64,000 bases of DNA. Source: Thermogemmata fonticola. Its GTDB lineage: Bacteria > Planctomycetota > Planctomycetia > Gemmatales > Gemmataceae. The stretch lies in contig NZ_JACEFB010000011.1 of assembly GCF_013694095.1 (NCBI RefSeq), forward strand, positions 62,001 to 126,000, in the 5' to 3' direction. Each line of letters opens with the position of its first letter. Within the stretch, counting starts at the first letter, position 1. Below, one piece after another: positions 652 through 9,358 of the stretch. The notes below the pieces were generated by a model. It did no database searches. It saw nothing but the letters and a program-made list of their open reading frames with translations, and was not told where the DNA came from. A program made the translations under genes and the position numbers.

Positions 652-2124
652 TTACTGGACAGGCCGGGCGTAGTCACCCCGCATGAAGCCGCTGTCGGCG
701 GGGGGATCGTATCGGATGTCGCGCAGGTCCGGTGTTTCCAGGCGGGCGGAGCGGCGCACGCGGGATTCCAGGGCGTAGTCGAGGATGCCGCCGGTGAGGA
801 GGGTGCGTTCCACGGGGTAGGGGGGCTGGCCGGTTTCCAGGAAGCGTTCGATGTGGCGGGTCAGGGCTTCCAGGAAGGCCGCGCCCGGCGGCGGCGGGAG
901 ATAGAACAGGCAGGAGGCGATTTGCGGCGGTTGAGCCAAGCGGGCGGCGAAGGTTTCATCCGCGACATGGCCGTCGAGTTGCAGCACGGCGGCCTGCAAG
1001 CCGTCGAGGTACTCGATGAGAAAGGCGATCGGGCCGGGAACAAAGTTGCCCCACGTCGTGGGCCGGGCGAAGCGGCGGCAGTTGGCCCGAACGTCGCCGG
1101 CGTTGCGGGACAGGCTCCGGCCCAAGGCGTGCTCCAGCAACTCCCAGGACCATCGCCCCTCCTCGGCGGCTTGCCAGACCGCGTCTCCTTGCAGGCAAGT
1201 CACGGCCCGGACGCCCTGCGCTGCTCCATCTTTCCCAACGGGGCGGAAGCGCCGCTCCACCATGCATTGCAGCGCTTCCAGGGCGTGAATGCCGTAAATT
1301 TCCAATTCCCCGCGCGAGGCCACGAGGGCTTCCTTCATCCCTGTACCCAGAGGCAATTCCAGTTCCGGCCGCCGCCAGGTCACCGGCAGACTGGACCCCG
1401 CCATCAGGGGGAAGCCCATTTGACGGGCCGTCATTACCATTTCCGCCGCCTGACGCCGGTCGTAACTCAGATGCTTGTCGCAAAACACCGGCACGCTCCG
1501 CCCGCTTTTCTCGAACACCGCCACGATCTGCCGGAAATAGTCGTAACGAGGATAGAGCTTCTGGCCTTTGGCGTTGTACGGGTAATCCCCATGCTCCGCG
1601 ATGAGCAGCACCCCATCGACCGCCAGCTTGCCCGTACCCAAGGTCAGGGCATCCTCGATGGTCGGCGACAGGCGGAAGCCGTGTTCCTGGGCCAGCTCCC
1701 GGCTCAGATCATTCTTTCGCACCTGTTCCACATAGAGGCTGGCGACTCCGAAGGAGGGAAAGTGATAGCCGTCGTCACGCAGGTAGCCGTCCAGGAAGCG
1801 CCCGGCGATGTGATAAGCGTGGGAGAGGTAGTGATAGATAGTCGTGAGGACGGCCAGTTTCTTCTCGGCGGGGCGAGGCCGTTTGGGAGGCCGGCTGCGG
1901 GGGAACGATGACAGACTCGAAGCATCTCTGCCACTTGCCGGACCGCCACCCTCGCTTCCATTCTTCTCCGGACTCCAGGAGGCCGCGGCCCCGGCCAGGA
2001 CCACGCCGCTGCTGAGCACAAACTGCCGCCGATCGGGAGAGTCGGAATCGGACCCCCGAACGGGTATCGGCTCGGCTTTCGCGTCGCTGCTGGATCGGAC
2101 GGGAAACGGAACTTCAGGGGGCAT
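652..2124 (-). CDS. Tat-signal hypothetical protein
   Basis: A 490-residue exported protein of unknown function. Residues 31-34 (DRRQ) followed by a hydrophobic stretch (FVLSSGVVLAGAAASW) form a twin-arginine signal, so a folded, possibly cofactor-bearing protein is likely exported. The ATG at 2124 is chosen over the upstream in-frame codon at 2175 because AGGAGG lies 8 nt before it. The mature part has motifs such as HGDYPYN and FCDKHLSYD and reads like a planctomycete protein that handles a small-molecule or oxidoreductase-like task, but I do not recognise a named family. It lies upstream of dtd on the same strand. Confidence 0.8.
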   Translation of the reverse strand: MPPEVPFPVRSSSDAKAEPIPVRGSDSDSPDRRQFVLSSGVVLAGAAASWSPEKNGSEGGGPASGRDASSLSSFPRSRPPKRPRPAEKKLAVLTTIYHYLSHAYHIAGRFLDGYLRDDGYHFPSFGVASLYVEQVRKNDLSRELAQEHGFRLSPTIEDALTLGTGKLAVDGVLLIAEHGDYPYNAKGQKLYPRYDYFRQIVAVFEKSGRSVPVFCDKHLSYDRRQAAEMVMTARQMGFPLMAGSSLPVTWRRPELELPLGTGMKEALVASRGELEIYGIHALEALQCMVERRFRPVGKDGAAQGVRAVTCLQGDAVWQAAEEGRWSWELLEHALGRSLSRNAGDVRANCRRFARPTTWGNFVPGPIAFLIEYLDGLQAAVLQLDGHVADETFAARLAQPPQIASCLFYLPPPPGAAFLEALTRHIERFLETGQPPYPVERTLLTGGILDYALESRVRRSARLETPDLRDIRYDPPADSGFMRGDYARPVQ

Positions 2125-2798
2125 GCCATCTTCCTCCTGGGTTATCGCCCTGGAATCCCACAGAGCAGGAACCAAGGCCGCTGAAGGATTGCTCAGAATG
2201 ATGGCCGGCTAGCTCGGCACACCAGCCGGGCAACGCCTTAGCATACCTCATGGCGGGACAGCGATCTCGCACGCCAACCGCCGAGCGGTGAACCCGCGGT
2301 ACTGCTCTGCTGGCCATTGTGGTCGAGTGCACCCGCGTTGGACAGCAAAAAATCGCCGCTTCGTGGCAAGTGGGCCTTGAATGAGGAGTCGGCCTCTGGT
2401 GAGTGAGGGGATCGGCTTTGTGTGGAAGACTTAGGAGGCAGTGGATCTGGTGGGCGGGGCAGAGTTTGGCTTAGCTTGGAAAGTACGAATAAAGAATGGC
2501 GACTTTTCTGCGAATAGTGAATTGATGCGGAAAGCGGAATGGAAAAGGTTTGCGGCGATCTGTTGGCAGGGCGAAGTGGGAGGGGGGCCGGCCAGGTCCT
2601 CAGGGCTTCCGACTCCCCTGGCGCAAGCGCCAGGGCTTGAACAATCGGTTCTTTCACAGCCAGATTGCCCGGATTCGCCAGAAGCGGAGCTTGTCAAAGT
2701 CTTAGGCATCGGTCACAATCGGATATAGCGGGACTGCGCCAACGGGGTGGTGAAAGGTCCGGTGTTTTCGGGTGTCCCCGCCGGGGGGAGTGCCACTC
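2125..2798. other. Intergenic, divergent promoter region
   Basis: 674 bp separate two divergently transcribed genes, so promoters for both should lie here. Short open frames on both strands in this stretch have no recognisable protein character or ribosome binding site. The part around 2440-2560 is noticeably richer in A+T than its surroundings. No RNA gene or repeat was seen. Confidence 0.5.
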
Positions 2799-3992
2799 AT
2801 GACGGTCTTCGGCAAGGTACTGTTGATTTTCAACCTGCTGCTGGCAATTGGCTTCGGCTATTTGGCCACCCAGGATTGGCAGCGCCGGCAGACAATCCAA
2901 GCTGCGGCCCTGCGTTATGACCTTCTGGTCCAGGGTTTGCCCTTGGGAGCTGAGCCGGACGCCCCCAAATCACTTCCCGCCGATCCCGATGATCCGGTAC
3001 CGCTGCGTGTGCTCGGCGTGGGGAACATACCGGTCTTCAGTGTCAGCAAGAAGTATTTGGAGGCGTATTTCCAAGGGGCGCAAGGGGGCAGCGACCTGGG
3101 GGGTCCTGCGGTGCCGAATCAATTGGCTGAGGTGCAGCGTGTGCGCAGCCGCATCGAGCAGTTGCTCAGTGCTGCGGAAACCCCGCAGGCCAAACTCCAG
3201 CGCCTGCGGGGTTGGCTGCTATACCAGGCGGAAACCTTCGAGGAACATCAGGCCATCCTTGACCTCTTGCGGCAGGGGAACGTCGAGGAGTTGCAGAACC
3301 GGCTTTATGCCCGCTTCGATGCCGTGCTCAAACCCTCCCAGGCGGGTGCCATCCCCCCTCCCCTCACCGATGAAGAGTTGGCCGGTAAAACTCCTGAGGA
3401 ACAAGCCGCCTTAGTCCAATCCCGCGCCAGCCAGCTTCAGCAGAGCTATGCTCAGTCTCTCGACGAAAGTGAGCGCCGCATGCGCCTCGCTCATCTGCTG
3501 ATCCATTTGGACCCCAGTGCCGACTGGCAGAAGCGAGTCGCCGCCGTCGTAGGTTTGAGCCGCTATACCTCGGCCCTGGTGGCTCAGACCCGGCGCTTCG
3601 AGGAGATGTCCCGCCTGATGGAGCAGCTCCTGGTGGTGGACCAGCAGGCGTATCTGGAACGGTTACAGCCGCTCATGCGGGCTGCTCAGAACGCGACAGA
3701 CGTGACCAATCGCCAGGCGGCCTTGCGAGCCAAGTGGGTCGAGCAGTTCCGGCGCGAATCGGATGCCGTCAACCAGCGGGAAACCCAACTGCGGGAACTG
3801 ACTAATGCCCTGGCTCGCGTCAAGGCGGAAGTCGATGCCTTGCTGGTACGCCAGACGGGGATCGAAGACCAGATGCTGGCCATTCAGCGGGAAGTGGCCA
3901 ATGCCCTGGAGGAAGTTTACCGGCTGGAAGCGGAACTGGTGGCGCGAGAGAAGCAGTTGCTCCAGCAAATGGGCCGCTCCTTCGGTCCTTGA
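2799..3992 (+). CDS. Membrane-anchored coiled-coil protein, first of four
   Basis: A 397-residue protein of unknown function. The start at 2799 is preceded by a GGGGGGAG ribosome site 8 nt upstream and immediately opens a membrane anchor (residues about 4-23, FGKVLLIFNLLLAIGFGYLA). The rest is hydrophilic and helical; the last 110 residues (RQAALRAKWVEQFRRESDAV and on) look like a coiled coil. It is followed by three more genes on the same strand that share the design of an N-terminal anchor plus a charged extracytoplasmic or cytoplasmic helix. The set looks like one transcription unit, possibly a planctomycete envelope or scaffold complex; that role is inference only. Confidence 0.8.
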   Translation: MTVFGKVLLIFNLLLAIGFGYLATQDWQRRQTIQAAALRYDLLVQGLPLGAEPDAPKSLPADPDDPVPLRVLGVGNIPVFSVSKKYLEAYFQGAQGGSDLGGPAVPNQLAEVQRVRSRIEQLLSAAETPQAKLQRLRGWLLYQAETFEEHQAILDLLRQGNVEELQNRLYARFDAVLKPSQAGAIPPPLTDEELAGKTPEEQAALVQSRASQLQQSYAQSLDESERRMRLAHLLIHLDPSADWQKRVAAVVGLSRYTSALVAQTRRFEEMSRLMEQLLVVDQQAYLERLQPLMRAAQNATDVTNRQAALRAKWVEQFRRESDAVNQRETQLRELTNALARVKAEVDALLVRQTGIEDQMLAIQREVANALEEVYRLEAELVAREKQLLQQMGRSFGP

Positions 3993-4160
3993 AGTATCCC
4001 TTGGTCCTGGGACTGGGAGCTGGATCCAGGAGGGAGGCGGCGCGCAGAAGGCGGTCGTTCACGACGGGCCGAAATGGGGAGGCGCTCGCGGGCCGAAGGC
4101 AGAGTCGACGAGTCCTGGCGAGAGGAACAGGGACCCAAGCAACGCGCGGGAATCCAGGCC

Positions 4161-4886
4161 ATGACAGCGATTGGTAAGTTTCTGGCGGTGCTGAATCTGT
4201 TTGTGGGGATCGGCTTGGCGACCTGGTCAGTCAGTGTCTTTGCCAACCGGTTGCCGTGGTACGATCCCTTGCCCCCTGCGGAGACGATCCATCCCGGCCA
4301 CAAACCGGCCAACTTCGCCTACCTGCGGGAAGAGCTGGACAAGCACGTGCGTGCCGCCCAAGCAGCCAGCCTGCTCTGGACCCAACAACGGCAGCGCTTC
4401 GAGCAATTGGAACAGTTCCGCAACAGCCGCCTGCGAGGGTACGAAGAATGGATCGGCTTCGCCAAAAACGGCAACCCGCGGGACAATGGCATCGGCTTCT
4501 ACGAGCCGGTGTACGATCCCGCAACGGGCTTGCTGGACCTGACCCCTCCCAGCCCCACCGTCCGCCGCACTCCGATCCTGGGAGTGGACAATCGCCCCCT
4601 GCGCGGCGCCGACACCCTTCAGGATCAGTACATCCGTGATGCCAATGAATTGATCAAACTGGCGCGCCAAATCGACGAGCTGCGCAATCGCTTCCGCGAT
4701 CTGAGCACGGAAATCCTGCAAACCGAGGATCGCTTGCGCCGGATGGTGGAAATCCGCGATTCCGTTCAGGCGGAGCTGTTCTACCTGATGGATGCCCAAT
4801 GGGACGTTTACGAACTGCGGGAGACGGCCCTGCGGCGCCAACGGCAGTTGTCCCAGCGTCTGGCGGAATTACGCCCGAACCCCTGA
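4161..4886 (+). CDS. Membrane-anchored coiled-coil protein, second of four
   Basis: A 241-residue protein of unknown function. The start at 4161 is chosen because the membrane segment begins right after it (MTAIGKFLAVLNLFVGIGLATWSV, broken here by the second half of the anchor); upstream codons give no plausible protein. The ribosome site is weak. The N-terminus closely resembles the first gene (MT-x-x-GK-x-L-x-x-x-NL), which suggests they are distant paralogues. Residues about 180-235 (RQIDELRNRFRDLSTEILQT and on) form a likely coiled coil. The 168 bp gap from the first gene contains no other recognisable gene. Confidence 0.78.
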   Translation: MTAIGKFLAVLNLFVGIGLATWSVSVFANRLPWYDPLPPAETIHPGHKPANFAYLREELDKHVRAAQAASLLWTQQRQRFEQLEQFRNSRLRGYEEWIGFAKNGNPRDNGIGFYEPVYDPATGLLDLTPPSPTVRRTPILGVDNRPLRGADTLQDQYIRDANELIKLARQIDELRNRFRDLSTEILQTEDRLRRMVEIRDSVQAELFYLMDAQWDVYELRETALRRQRQLSQRLAELRPNP

Positions 4887-5126
4887 GAGCCACGGGGCCT
4901 ACTACTTGAGCCAAATGACTTGAAATGACTTGAGAGGGAAAAAAACATCCTGTAACCTGGAAAAGACGTGGGGAGCTGGGGAACAGCTCATATGCCTTGA
5001 ACTTGTGAAGCTGTCGGAGAGTCCGCTGGGCAAGCCAGTGAGGAGATAACAAGCGAATCCGAGATTGTTGGATCCAAATGCTTCGAGGAGATCACGCCGT
5101 CTCAGTTGTGCCGAGGAGAGACCCCC

Positions 5127-6035
5127 ATGACCTGGCTTGGGAAAATACTCGCCTTCTTCGTTTTGATCGGTGCTGTGGTGTGGATGTACCTGTCGGTCCA
5201 GGCATTCGTGCTGCGGACGAATTGGAAGGTGGAAGCCGATCGGTGGCGGCAGGCCTACGAGCAGATCCGCTCAGCACGGGAAGCTGAGTATCAGCGCTTC
5301 CGGTCGACCGAGGAAGCCTTGCGGCGGCAATTGCTGGCCGAACAGCGCCGCACCAGCGAGTTGCAAAAGTCTGTCGCCGAGTTGACCAATCGCGGAGCGC
5401 GGGATGCGGATGCGACCAAGAGCTTGCAAAAGCTCTACGAGGAGGCGGATGTCAAGGCGGTGCAACTGCAAGCGAGCCGCGATGCTTTGATCAAGGAAGT
5501 CAGCTCGGTTCGGGTGCGCAACGAGCAGTTGGAAAGTGAGCGGCAGCGTTTGATCGTCGCTGCCGAGGAAGCCCGGCGTGAGGCAGTGCGGGCCAGAATC
5601 GCCGAGCGGGCTGCCCAATTCGTCGCCGAGCAGAACGCCGCTCTGGTCGAAGAACTGCGGGAAAAAATCCGGCAGCTTAGCCGTTCTCTCCTGGCCGGTG
5701 GCTCTACTCAACCTCCGGCATTGCGAGAAATCGATAAGCCGCCGCCTCCGCCATTGCCCAATCTCCGCGGGGAAGTCACTGCTGTGTCAGGGGATCTGGT
5801 CGTCCTGAGTATCGGCTACGAAGCGGGGCTGAACGTCGGCACGGAGCTGGAAATCTATCGCCTTGAGGGAGAAAGCCGCTATCTGGGGACTGTCAAAATT
5901 ACCAGCTTGGCCAATCTTTATCCCAAGCAAGCCGTGGCCACCTTCATCCCGGCCCGCAATGTGCCCTTTGCCCGCTTGACCCCGGCGGAGAAACCCCGCC
6001 CCGGCGACCTGGTCCGGCCGATCGAAAGCCGCTGA
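5127..6035 (+). CDS. Membrane-anchored coiled-coil protein with C-terminal beta domain
   Basis: A 302-residue protein. The start at 5127 has GGAG about 9 nt upstream and again leads straight into a membrane anchor (residues about 4-24, LGKILAFFVLIGAVVWMYLSV). Residues about 30-190 are a long, strongly heptad-like coiled coil rich in Arg, Glu, Ala and Gln. After a Pro-rich hinge (DKPPPPPLPN) a roughly 85-residue beta-rich domain follows, with GEVTAVSGDLVVLSIGYEAG and a GDLVRP ending. This looks like the small SH3-like or FlgT-C/MreC-like beta modules that cap coiled-coil envelope proteins, but the assignment is only by pattern. Third member of the putative operon. Confidence 0.78.
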   Translation: MTWLGKILAFFVLIGAVVWMYLSVQAFVLRTNWKVEADRWRQAYEQIRSAREAEYQRFRSTEEALRRQLLAEQRRTSELQKSVAELTNRGARDADATKSLQKLYEEADVKAVQLQASRDALIKEVSSVRVRNEQLESERQRLIVAAEEARREAVRARIAERAAQFVAEQNAALVEELREKIRQLSRSLLAGGSTQPPALREIDKPPPPPLPNLRGEVTAVSGDLVVLSIGYEAGLNVGTELEIYRLEGESRYLGTVKITSLANLYPKQAVATFIPARNVPFARLTPAEKPRPGDLVRPIESR

Positions 6036-6189
6036 GCTTCCCTGGTCCCAACGGTTCCCTCTGCCGAAAGAGAATGGTCGGGGGTTTCTCGTACCTGCGG
6101 ATTTTCGCCCTGAATATCGACTCCCGAATAACCTATAACCTGCAAACCGTTGCTTCGAAACAACCAGCAGCGCTCCAGGAGCAAGACAC

Positions 6190-6495
6190 ATGGCCAAGAA
6201 AAAGAAGAAGAAAAAAGAAGAGCTGGATGAGGATTATGAAGTCGCCCCCGCTGCCGAGGTGGAGGATGGAGCCGAAGAAGCGGCGCCCTCTCTTCGCCGG
6301 CCCCAACAAGCCAAGCCGCGCAACGATGCCTACGTCATGATGCTGGCCATCACCTTTTTGGCCCTAGTGACGGGTTGCGTGCTGATGTACCTCGACGCTG
6401 CCCAGTATGAAGGAAAAAATCCGCCCCAGGCGGCAATCCCTGCCGTGCCGGAGTTGGGGAAAGCGGCGGCACCCGCAGGACCCGCTACGAAATAG
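6190..6495 (+). CDS. Small lysine-rich single-pass membrane protein
   Basis: A 101-residue protein that opens with seven lysines (residues 3-9), followed by an acidic stretch, then one membrane segment at residues about 49-67 (VMMLAITFLALVTGCVLMYL) and a Pro/Ala-rich tail. AGGAG lies 8 nt before the ATG. It is the last of the four membrane-anchored genes and is followed by a candidate terminator, which suggests the operon ends here. The positively charged N-terminus probably stays in the cytoplasm (positive-inside rule) with the tail outside. No family recognised. Confidence 0.75.
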   Translation: MAKKKKKKKEELDEDYEVAPAAEVEDGAEEAAPSLRRPQQAKPRNDAYVMMLAITFLALVTGCVLMYLDAAQYEGKNPPQAAIPAVPELGKAAAPAGPATK

Positions 6496-6519
6496 CTCCT
6501 TCGGACCAGGGAGTTTTTT
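6494..6519 (+). terminator. Candidate intrinsic terminator
   Basis: A 6-pair stem (AGCTCC with GGAGTT, one G-T pair) and a loop of about 10 bases is followed directly by a run of T (6514-6519). It overlaps the stop codon region of the four-gene membrane-protein run and sits between that run and the convergent lactate permease gene. Confidence 0.5.
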
Positions 6520-6651
6520 CCGGGTTATTGCTGGCGATTCCCGCTGCTCTTTGACGCCGAGCGTTCCGCTGCCCAGGGGTGGGCCGGACGCTCCGCAATG
6601 TTCTCCCCGGACCGCTTCCCCTTCACCTGCGGACGGTCGGCGTGACTTGGA

Positions 6652-8487
6652 TCACTTCGGCACCATTAGCGTAAACGGCCAGAGGAAAGCTTGGACAGCC
6701 GTCATCAACCCGACGACGCAAGCGAGCAGGACGCTATGCCAGATGACGGCTTTGAAGATGTCCGCTTCCCGGCCGACCTGATTGGTGCCCGCTGTGGCGA
6801 CACAGATGCTCTGCGCGTCGATCATTTTGCCCATCACGCCGCCGGTACTGTTGGCCGTGCAGATGAGGGTTTGCGCTTGTTCCAAGCTCAGGTGACGCAG
6901 CGCGGTGCTGCCGTGAGTATTCCACACCTCTGTGGCGGTGATCTTCTGCAAACTGCCGAAGAGGGCATTGCTGCCGGCGTCCGTGCCGGTGAGGAAGACC
7001 CCTAGCCAGCCGAGCATGGCGGCGAAAAAGGGATACAGCACCCCCGTTTCCGCAAAAGCTACCCCCAAGGTGGCATCCATGCCGGCGTACTTCGTGACAT
7101 AGCTCAGTCCCAGCATGCAGGCGATCGTGGGGATGGGAATGCGCATCTGATAGATCGTCTTGCGGAAGACGGCGAGCACCTGAGCCGGGGAGAGTCGCAG
7201 CAGCACCATCGACAAAAGGGCGGCGCAAAAGACCGGCGTTCCCGGCGCAGTCAGCCAGGTGATCTTGAAGAGGGCGGCTTCCTTCCTCTCGTCGCCAACG
7301 GCATCCGGGGGGACCAGCCGCTCGGCCCGTTCCACCCTTTTGTGCAGCGTCGGCACCGGCACTTCCCAGTAGGAAGGGACCACGCCGAGGTCCAACGGCC
7401 CCTGCTTTTCCATCTGCCGGGCGATGCCGGAGAGGATAAGAAACAGGGCCATCAAGCCCCAGGGCATCCAGGCGCGGAGGACTTGGCGCGTTTGCAAGGG
7501 TTCGAAGCGCTGGGCCAGTCCCTGGCCATTGGCGAGCCACTCGCTGACCTGTTCTTCCGCCTGGACGACGTTTGGGTCCGCCGGAGAGACCGGTTCAGCC
7601 GTCTGGCCAGCGCCCACCTGTTCCTGGGGGAAGCGCCACTCCTGCCGAGGCTTCCAGACGAATTTGAGGAAAGCCGCCAGGCAGGCCATGGACAGGATCG
7701 CCCCGCAGATGTCGGTCAGGGGCCAGATTGGCGGCAGGCCGTAAGCATGGGCTGTAGCAAAGAAAAACTGGGCCAGGGCAAAGGAACCGCCCCCCACCGC
7801 CAGCGCGGGCCAGATCGCCAGGGTTTCCCGCCAGGTGCACATCGTCTTGACCATGTACAGCGGAATCAGGCACGACAGGATCGGTAACTGATGCCCGCAC
7901 ATAATGCTGATGGTGTCTCCCGACAGTCCGGTGACACTGGAAAGCGTCAGGATCGGAACGCCCAGGCCGCCGAAACAGACCGGCGAGGTGTTGGCAATCA
8001 GGCAGATAACCGCCGCTTGGAACGGAGGCACTCCCAGGCCGACGAGCATGGCGCCGCAGATGGCCACCGGCGAACCTGCCCCTGCCGCACCCTCCATGAA
8101 CGCCCCGAAGCAGAAACCGATCAGCACCGCCTGCACCCGCGCATCGCCGCTCAGGCCCCCAATGGAACGCCGGATGATGCTGAACTGCCCGCTGATCAAC
8201 GTTGTGTTGTACAGCAGCATGGCAGCAAAGACGGTCCAGCCGATCGGCAGCAAGCCAAAGGTCATACCATGGACGAAGGCCCAACTGGCCATCGCCAACG
8301 GCATGTCATAGGCCAGCCAGGCCAGCAGCACCGCGGTGATCGCTCCCGCCGCTCCGGCCCACGGCGCCAGCCATCGCCGCCCCACCAGCAAGTAAAACAA
8401 CACCAGCACCGGCAGGCCAGCGACCACCGTGGACAACAGCCGGTTCCCTAACGGGTCCAGATTCTGCACATACACGGCCCAGAGCAT
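6652..8487 (-). CDS. lctP: L-lactate permease
   Basis: A 611-residue polytopic inner-membrane transporter of the LctP family, importing L-lactate (and related 2-hydroxy acids) with protons. Many hydrophobic segments are visible, and the stretch GFCFGAFMEGAAGAGSPVAI together with NTSPVCFGGLGVPI is characteristic of the family. The protein is somewhat longer than the usual 530-570 residues because of a hydrophilic loop at roughly residues 300-360 (PQEQVGAGQTAEPVSPADP). The start at 8487 (MLWAVYVQNLDPLGNRLLS) is preferred to the upstream in-frame codon at 8547 because GAAAGG lies 9 nt upstream and family members begin close to the first membrane segment. No lactate dehydrogenase gene is next to it. 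Confidence 0.93.
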   Translation of the reverse strand: MLWAVYVQNLDPLGNRLLSTVVAGLPVLVLFYLLVGRRWLAPWAGAAGAITAVLLAWLAYDMPLAMASWAFVHGMTFGLLPIGWTVFAAMLLYNTTLISGQFSIIRRSIGGLSGDARVQAVLIGFCFGAFMEGAAGAGSPVAICGAMLVGLGVPPFQAAVICLIANTSPVCFGGLGVPILTLSSVTGLSGDTISIMCGHQLPILSCLIPLYMVKTMCTWRETLAIWPALAVGGGSFALAQFFFATAHAYGLPPIWPLTDICGAILSMACLAAFLKFVWKPRQEWRFPQEQVGAGQTAEPVSPADPNVVQAEEQVSEWLANGQGLAQRFEPLQTRQVLRAWMPWGLMALFLILSGIARQMEKQGPLDLGVVPSYWEVPVPTLHKRVERAERLVPPDAVGDERKEAALFKITWLTAPGTPVFCAALLSMVLLRLSPAQVLAVFRKTIYQMRIPIPTIACMLGLSYVTKYAGMDATLGVAFAETGVLYPFFAAMLGWLGVFLTGTDAGSNALFGSLQKITATEVWNTHGSTALRHLSLEQAQTLICTANSTGGVMGKMIDAQSICVATAGTNQVGREADIFKAVIWHSVLLACVVGLMTAVQAFLWPFTLMVPK

Positions 8488-8914
8488 GGAGAGAGACCTT
8501 TCTTCTGTGCCGAGGATTCCCAGGTCAAGACGAATATCTTCCTCCACCTTGTCCGTGATAGGGCCAGGTGCTCTTCGATGCTAGCCTTTTCGATCTTTTC
8601 CGGCCAGCCGGCTGTTTTTGACTCCAACTCGCCGGCTGTTCACGCAGGTTGACCCAAACGTTCCCACCGTACCTATCGGGCTGTGTCCTGGACTGGCCCG
8701 GCCTGCGCCAGCAATCTCCTAGATATTTTGTGTGGATTTCCCGGACTGTCCCGATAACGGATTTTGTCCATTTCATCCATCTTCCATCAAGTTCTCCGCG
8801 ATCACCTGCCGAAAATCGATGTCGAAGCTCCGGAAAGCGGGGTACACCGGCGAGGCAGTGGCGCTTCAGCCGGAGCCTGCCTTCCCCGTCGATCCCAACC
8901 TTGGAGATGACCTC

Positions 8915-9358
8915 ATGAGTCGTGCCCGTCAGGTTCTTGGCTTGTTTCTGGTAACACTGTTCGGAGTTTATGGCTGCACGCAAGGGCAGATCGGGGGCCG
9001 CGAGAAAAGCGCACTGGAAGCGAAAATCCAGCGGCTGGAAGAGGAGGTGCGCAGCGCGCATACGGCCCAGCAGCAATTGCGGCAGAAATTGCTCGCCGCC
9101 GAAGAACGGCAAGTGCAGTTGCAGAAACAGTTGGAACAGTGGCAGGCCCAAGCGGCTGCGGAACGGGAAGCCCTGCGTGCGGAGCTGAAAGTCCGCACGG
9201 CCGAACGCGATGCCCTGGCCGCTCACTATGACAAGTTCCGCAAGGACCTGCGCGATCTATTGCAGCAGGCGGAAGCAACTCTGCCGGGGATCAGTCCTGC
9301 GGTGGCGCCGCCGCCGAGTGCTGTCAGTGCCCGCTCGGCAACTGAGCCGCTCCCCTAA
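8915..9358 (+). CDS. Coiled-coil lipoprotein
   Basis: A 147-residue protein. The start at 8915 has GGAG 9 nt upstream. It opens with a short signal sequence ending in LFGVYGC, a likely lipoprotein cleavage site with an unusual Tyr at -2, so the mature N-terminal Cys would be lipidated. Residues about 30-115 form a nearly uninterrupted coiled coil (EAKIQRLEEEVRSAHTAQQQ and on). The tail is Ala/Pro/Ser-rich. It is divergent from the lactate permease and upstream of a secreted protein. Function unknown; the shape resembles small periplasmic coiled-coil lipoproteins. Confidence 0.72.
   Translation: MSRARQVLGLFLVTLFGVYGCTQGQIGGREKSALEAKIQRLEEEVRSAHTAQQQLRQKLLAAEERQVQLQKQLEQWQAQAAAEREALRAELKVRTAERDALAAHYDKFRKDLRDLLQQAEATLPGISPAVAPPPSAVSARSATEPLP

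Follow-up and report, generated by a model that had tools for sequence, protein, structure and literature searches.

A mreB-linked family of membrane-anchored helix and beta-domain proteins within a two-module gene set of Thermogemmata fonticola and other Gemmataceae

How planctomycetes keep their shape and divide without FtsZ, and in the Gemmataceae also without a clear MreB or RodA/FtsW, is an open problem, and it lies behind the question raised by a locus of Thermogemmata fonticola: what are its four consecutive genes for putative membrane proteins, do they form one unit, and where did they come from? The stretch of DNA analysed here (the window) comprises 64,000 nucleotides (nt), positions 62,001-126,000 of the forward strand of contig NZ_JACEFB010000011.1 (GCF_013694095.1). 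An initial annotation had read the four genes, here termed A to D, as an undescribed envelope complex of coiled-coil proteins, perhaps linked to the unusual planctomycete membranes. All four open reading frames (ORFs) were found where it had placed them, in the same order and all on the plus strand. None of A, B, C or D reached the curated cut-off of any family in Pfam and NCBIfam searches, which returned sub-cut-off matches only, and we recognised no publication describing the family, judging by titles and the starts of abstracts in a body of literature that excludes most subscription journals. As detailed below, the proposal of a conserved, uncharacterised envelope gene set was borne out, and the set consists of an A-B module and a C-D module rather than one indivisible complex. 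We favor, with a probability of roughly 45%, the view that C-D is an old scaffold or spacer of the periplasm, linked to the elongasome, which survived the loss of MreB and was joined by A-B in the Gemmataceae.

The key member is gene C (window 5127..6035, plus strand), which encodes a 302-residue protein with an N-terminal anchor, a single helix to residue 187, a linker and a beta domain, and which belongs to a core family of the class Planctomycetia. A profile of C matched 237 of 246 genomes in a sample of the phylum at an expectation value (E) of <=0.001, weak matches included; families f45 and f76 yielded either no match or a weak one, perhaps noise from coiled coils. At the stricter threshold of E<=1e-10, C was matched in 118/118 genomes of the Planctomycetia. 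MreB was matched in 225/246 genomes of the phylum sample and in 38/118 Planctomycetia. Among 61 Gemmataceae genomes, C was matched in 54 with the window's protein as query, MreB in one, weakly (5e-22; 0/44 among the good genomes), and RodA/FtsW in none. Thus, C persists where a clear MreB and RodA are gone, and would not depend on them. Since C occurs throughout the sampled class and in most of the phylum sample, the direct tie to the unusual planctomycete membranes suggested by the initial annotation found no support.

Outside the class, C is closely linked to mreB. In the 92 genomes (out of 246) for which both a C place (given for 146) and an MreB place (given for 150) were available, mreB lay 3' of C, on the same strand and within 4 kb, in 78, with a median start-to-start distance of 1,456 nt; in 13 of the remaining 14 the two genes were on different contigs, and in one they were 7.9 kb apart. 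In 35 loci from outside the Gemmataceae, mreB followed C within 2.5 kb in 26 and lnt preceded it within 1.5 kb in 20. This count omits four loci (L101, L115, L119 and L128) in which our gene finder missed the C that the genome search locates there. D was sought in these loci by a simple rule, namely a small membrane protein directly after C. The rule was satisfied in 34 loci, or 33 once L125, where the protein is a second copy of C, is subtracted, and by 71/251 other genes of the same loci, so that a small membrane protein comes after C far more often than expected from background. In one such operon (L134), the Pfam assignments ran, in order, MoeA, Lnt, C (none), D (none), MreB, MreC, an unassigned protein in the place of MreD, a penicillin-binding protein (PBP) transpeptidase and a member of the RodA/FtsW family.

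We likewise measured how firmly the four genes hold together within the Gemmataceae. Forty loci were fetched and their genes called with a simple gene finder of our own, which overlooks some genes at contig ends and some short ORFs and therefore gives minimum counts. The full set of A to D was present in at least 22 of the 40. Using places from the genome searches instead, A (matched in 55/61 genomes, a few matches being short) and C lay within 6.5 kb of one another in 40 of the 51 genomes having both. Of the other 11, G005 and G012 each represent one locus interrupted by contig ends, and G003, with both B and C at contig ends, cannot be assigned, leaving eight clear splits (G001, G004, G009, G013, G021, G027, G030 and G053). 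In these eight, A adjoined B in 7/7 genomes read for A, and C adjoined D in 7/7 read for C. The splits therefore leave the A-B and C-D pairs whole, indicating two modules. Conservation of the four-gene order, the check initially proposed, holds for most of the family and fails in these eight genomes, which divide as A-B and C-D wherever read. Median intergenic gaps were 50 nt for A-B (26 loci), 159 nt for B-C (26) and 44 nt for C-D (29), with L046, L050, L052, L066 and L068 excluded. In a tree of 72 C proteins, from which L046, L050 and L052 were left out, the Gemmataceae formed one side of a branch with support of 99/99, and the split label, in a group of eight that counts the undecided G003, required three changes. 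Two variants were seen alongside: in L159, L162, L163 and L166, where A-B is apart from C-D (undecided for G003), the membrane helix of A is preceded by an acidic extension resembling D, and in L039, L042, L044 and L064 a second D-like gene follows D.

A is more narrowly distributed than C. In the class sample it was matched in 26/26 Gemmataceae (the match in G013 being short), and the 6 matches among the other 92 genomes covered just 35-76 profile positions; on these profile searches, full-length A was found only in the Gemmataceae. In six loci of family f2, C is preceded by a gene for an anchored helical protein that lacks a beta domain, and hhalign relates this protein to C, B and A with probabilities of 99.0%, 97.7% and 93.3%, respectively. 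Since these loci carry a C-like anchored gene before C, the first duplication of the anchored-helix gene may be older than the Gemmataceae. Taken together, the profiles and gene order suggest that C-D is old and derives from the rod (mreB) operon, and that A would be a newer addition, made in the Gemmataceae.

What unites A, B and C is their N-terminus. The initial annotation had noted a very similar anchor in three proteins, and both profile alignment and anchor models confirmed it. Gene A (2799..3992, plus strand) encodes 397 residues comprising the anchor, a helical region that includes one small part with two strands, and a long helix at the C-terminus; gene B (4161..4886, plus) encodes 241 residues, in which the anchor is followed by a region with helix-like hydrophobic periodicity and no beta domain of the C type (no structure model was available for B). 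The shared anchor occupies codons 1-36 of each gene (2799..2906 in A, 4161..4268 in B and 5127..5234 in C, all on the plus strand), as located by profile comparison and an anchor model in A and B and by anchor models in C. The four family alignments (A1-A4) hold 33 chosen members of C, 26 of A, 26 of B and 28 of D, and L050, L052, L066 and L068 were excluded as incomplete. The A and C profiles aligned over residues 1-39 only and those of A and B over 1-35 only, both in register, while B and C aligned in register from residue 1 onward. A 36-residue model of the C anchor, scanned against the 892 predicted proteins of the fetched loci, matched at E<0.01 38 C proteins (including those used to build the model), 25 A, 19 B, 29 C relatives outside the family and three further C-like proteins, and nothing else; two other proteins appeared at E<1. 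A joint anchor model applied to nine genomes gave 27 matches below E 1e-4, exactly three per genome, the next match being at E 0.108. In these nine genomes A, B and C thus share one specific anchor with no other protein. We had considered the anchor as a general sorting signal, and its restriction to three proteins per genome rules this out.

Models of the individual proteins agreed in part with the description of long coiled-coil helices. AlphaFold predicted C as one helix (residues 3-187), a disordered linker (predicted local distance difference test <50 at 187-203) and a beta domain (215-298), in keeping with the earlier claim that the third protein ends in a small beta domain; the predicted template modelling score was 0.35, so that the mutual placement of these parts is not fixed by the model. 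The model of A begins with a helix and continues through a small region of two strands and some short helices to a long helix at the C-terminus, and a fold search of the PDB with this model gave no match at E<=0.001. Long helices are therefore predicted for A and C, the two proteins with models. Hydrophobic periodicity exceeded that of shuffled sequences in the window's B (p 0.001) and C (p 0.004) and failed to do so in A (p 0.72 for residues 200-390; p 0.15 for 253-390). Periodicity thus backed the coiled-coil description for the window's B and C and not for A, and the description does not apply to gene D (6190..6495, plus strand), which encodes a 101-residue single-pass protein with no coil. 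The D protein has a Lys-rich, then acidic N-terminus, one membrane helix and a short Pro/Ala-rich tail; it begins with MAKKKKKKK, the seven lysines for which the initial annotation had singled it out.

The layout of C was well conserved. Members of the 33-protein alignment carry the anchor motif MTxxGK, the long helix and the beta domain, with invariant M1, G5, G230, G254 and D294. The spacing from K6 to the beta domain had a median of 204 residues in 39 Gemmataceae (quartiles 201-208, range 187-234) and of 202 in 35 members from outside the family (quartiles 200-204, range 194-213), yet most members share just 20-30% identity with the C of the window. An alpha helix rises 0.15 nm per residue, and at that rate the predicted helix beyond the membrane would measure about 24 nm. 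The C-terminal beta domain (residues 212-302; 5760..6032, plus strand) was predicted to have a fold like that of the FlgT C-terminal domain and of F1-ATPase barrels: the best Foldseek match was FlgT (3w1e, E 7.9e-5), and VIA gave Z scores of 9.9 for 8z5n, 8.7 for 3w1e and 9.0 for F1-ATPase barrels. The entry 8z5n is the LPHT ring, and we take its matched chain to be FlgT. Sequence matches to FlgT_C (PF16538) were weak, occurring in 9/33 C members (best 3.2e-4), and above the curated cut-off the family was matched by C in 0/10 genomes. FlgT is not known to have an anchored long helix such as C carries. PDB sequence matches of the C profile, among 60 rows mainly coiled-coil proteins such as myosin and tropomyosin, were discarded.

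The hydrophobic segment of C begins after about six residues, and the side of the membrane on which the remainder lies can be approached through its paralogues. Four of these (L046:8762-9370, L063:5450-6118, L172 and L174, the last two being near copies) have a shorter coil, the same beta domain and, in place of the anchor, a start that was judged signal-peptide-like by eye, with no prediction program; the start of a further paralogue, in L175, could not be classed. If the paralogues share the topology of C, such starts place the coil and beta part outside the cytoplasm, and the helix and beta part of C would most likely lie in the periplasm. The charges flanking the membrane helix (+1.9 on the N side, +1.0 on the C side) agree weakly with this orientation. 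Elsewhere, a single open frame (L178:387-1682, in G308) combines the anchor with coil and the beta domain in a protein longer than usual.

These observations suggest the following mechanism. An N-terminal helix preceded by only about six residues would fix C in the inner membrane, and its helix of conserved length would carry the FlgT-like beta domain, most likely across the periplasm, where the domain might contact the outer envelope. The small D protein, with its charged N-terminus and single membrane helix, would be a partner. C would then act, probably in oligomeric form, as a scaffold or spacer in the periplasm that was passed down together with the elongasome yet is independent of MreB and RodA. 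Because the spacing in C is unchanged in lineages that lack MreB, its role would concern the geometry of the envelope and not MreB as such. In the Gemmataceae, the anchored-helix gene would have been duplicated to give A and B, the copies, which share the anchor, being placed before C-D and probably co-assembling with it. Such a family, matched in all 118 sampled class genomes, tied to mreB in other parts of the phylum, accompanied in the Gemmataceae by two related anchored proteins and carrying no Pfam or NCBIfam assignment for its members in the window, is a testable candidate for envelope organization, and gene knock-outs have been published for Planctopirus limnophila. Deletion of mreB in this species is reported to have given no phenotype (PMC6952346).

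A bolder version holds that a periplasm-spanning A-B-C-D scaffold took over envelope spacing and shape in the Gemmataceae after MreB and RodA/FtsW, and on gene evidence conventional peptidoglycan synthesis, were lost. This skeleton would stem from the elongasome, have outlasted it and have been multiplied to hold the deep invaginations of these cells, and C would serve as a ruler whose fixed length is roughly 24 nm. PMC8567305 states that peptidoglycan genes are absent from most Planctomycetales, Gemmataceae included, in step with the MreB complex, reports most genes of conventional synthesis as missing in the Gemmataceae, and proposes that losing the link between peptidoglycan synthesis and elongation let the inner membrane invaginate. 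We regard the bolder version as quite improbable. Several points tell against it or against the scaffold in general. Peptidoglycan has been reported in Gemmata obscuriglobus (Jeske et al. 2015, as recounted in PMC5147048), and set against the missing genes this leaves its loss in the family disputed. Conserved coil length is common among coiled coils, and that of C is no proof of a ruler. Hydrophobic periodicity was weak in A and B across their families (p<0.05 in 11/30 A and 5/29 B, compared to 27/39 C). Since FlgT and F1-ATPase barrels tie, the predicted beta domain may represent merely a common fold, and the proposed topology of C derives from a visual assessment of paralogues together with a modest bias in charge. 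Within the class, a manual reading of the tables placed C directly upstream of mreB in 11/38 MreB-bearing genomes (G181, G323, G328, G335, G336, G346, G354, G369, G376, G384 and G386); of the others, several are drafts with C and mreB on different contigs. With a background of 28%, individual D assignments outside the Gemmataceae are not all safe.

We also weighed whether C-D is instead an accessory of the Rod complex. C would then act like MreC or RodZ and meet PBP2 and RodA in the periplasm, the charged tail of D would meet MreB in the cytoplasm, and the genes in MreB-less lineages would be a leftover put to new use. The position of C beside mreB outside the class (78/92 genomes, compared to 11/38 MreB-bearing genomes within it, such adjacency not being possible in the Gemmataceae) favors this view, as does a bitopic helix-plus-beta layout like that of MreC (PF04085), C having a short N-terminus, a single N-terminal membrane helix, a long helical stretch and C-terminal beta structure in the AlphaFold model. 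It is also favored by the reported absence of RodZ from Planctomycetes, as stated in PMC5147048. However, C was found in 118/118 Planctomycetia and MreB in 38/118, the spacing of C is the same in the Gemmataceae, and the operons checked (L120, L124 and L134) also encode a separate, true MreC. C as a homologue of MreC was rejected, as the C family, compared by hhalign with five sequences of MreC, gave a probability of 0.8%, and PF04085 was absent from the matches of the window's C and from the 25 families shown for 33 C members. RodZ, which has a cytoplasmic helix-turn-helix domain that binds MreB, resembles C in the idea of an inner-membrane adaptor tied to mreB, but the six or so residues before the membrane helix of C leave no room for such a domain. 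FtsL, FtsB and DivIC are likewise small bitopic proteins with a periplasmic coil; C differs in having a beta domain, and DivIC was matched by 2/33 C members (best E 0.004). An accessory role therefore appears unlikely. The neighborhood of C also includes lnt (apolipoprotein N-acyltransferase), and C-D might serve lipoprotein or outer-membrane biogenesis with Lnt, sitting beside mreB only because lnt does. The 20/35 loci with lnt upstream include L109, from a genome without an MreB match, and the fold likeness to FlgT, a protein of the flagellar basal body, points the same way; nevertheless, mreB adjoins C more often than lnt (26 vs 20 of 35) and no Lnt-like protein was present among the 466 predicted proteins of the 40 Gemmataceae loci, making this explanation very unlikely. 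Finally, the genes might be conserved membrane proteins of unrelated roles kept in a stable order without functional meaning, a view to which the looser B-C junction (159 nt, compared to 50 and 44 nt at its neighbors) and the separability of A-B from C-D lend some weight. We judge it quite unlikely, given that the shared anchor is confined to A, B and C, that a small membrane protein follows C in 33/35 loci compared to 71/251 at background, and that neither pair was broken up at any locus read among the clear splits.

The surroundings of the four genes were less informative. The cluster was initially said to end at a candidate terminator, and a hairpin of eight pairs overlapping six T (6494..6519, plus strand; -8.3 kcal/mol) does exist there; as an intrinsic terminator it is a weak candidate, being no better than shuffled sequences for one cut (z -0.10) and better for another (z -2.35), and a consensus terminator scan of the window did not list it. 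A promoter scan of positions 2000-7500 returned one sigma-70-like site, compared to 1.1 expected from shuffles. Downstream, mnmA follows C in only 7/39 loci and was dropped as part of any explanation. Upstream, 21/31 Gemmataceae A loci have a serine/threonine kinase gene oriented divergently from A (for example L033:4210-5646); it too was dropped, being absent from that place in the window's genome, where a minus-strand ORF (window 652-2175) of 507 residues from its first start, or 455 according to the gene finder, and with no Pfam match, occupies the position at which many relatives carry the kinase. Further downstream, at window 8819-9358, a 179-residue protein matched the iterated C profile at 4e-9, probably through its coil alone.

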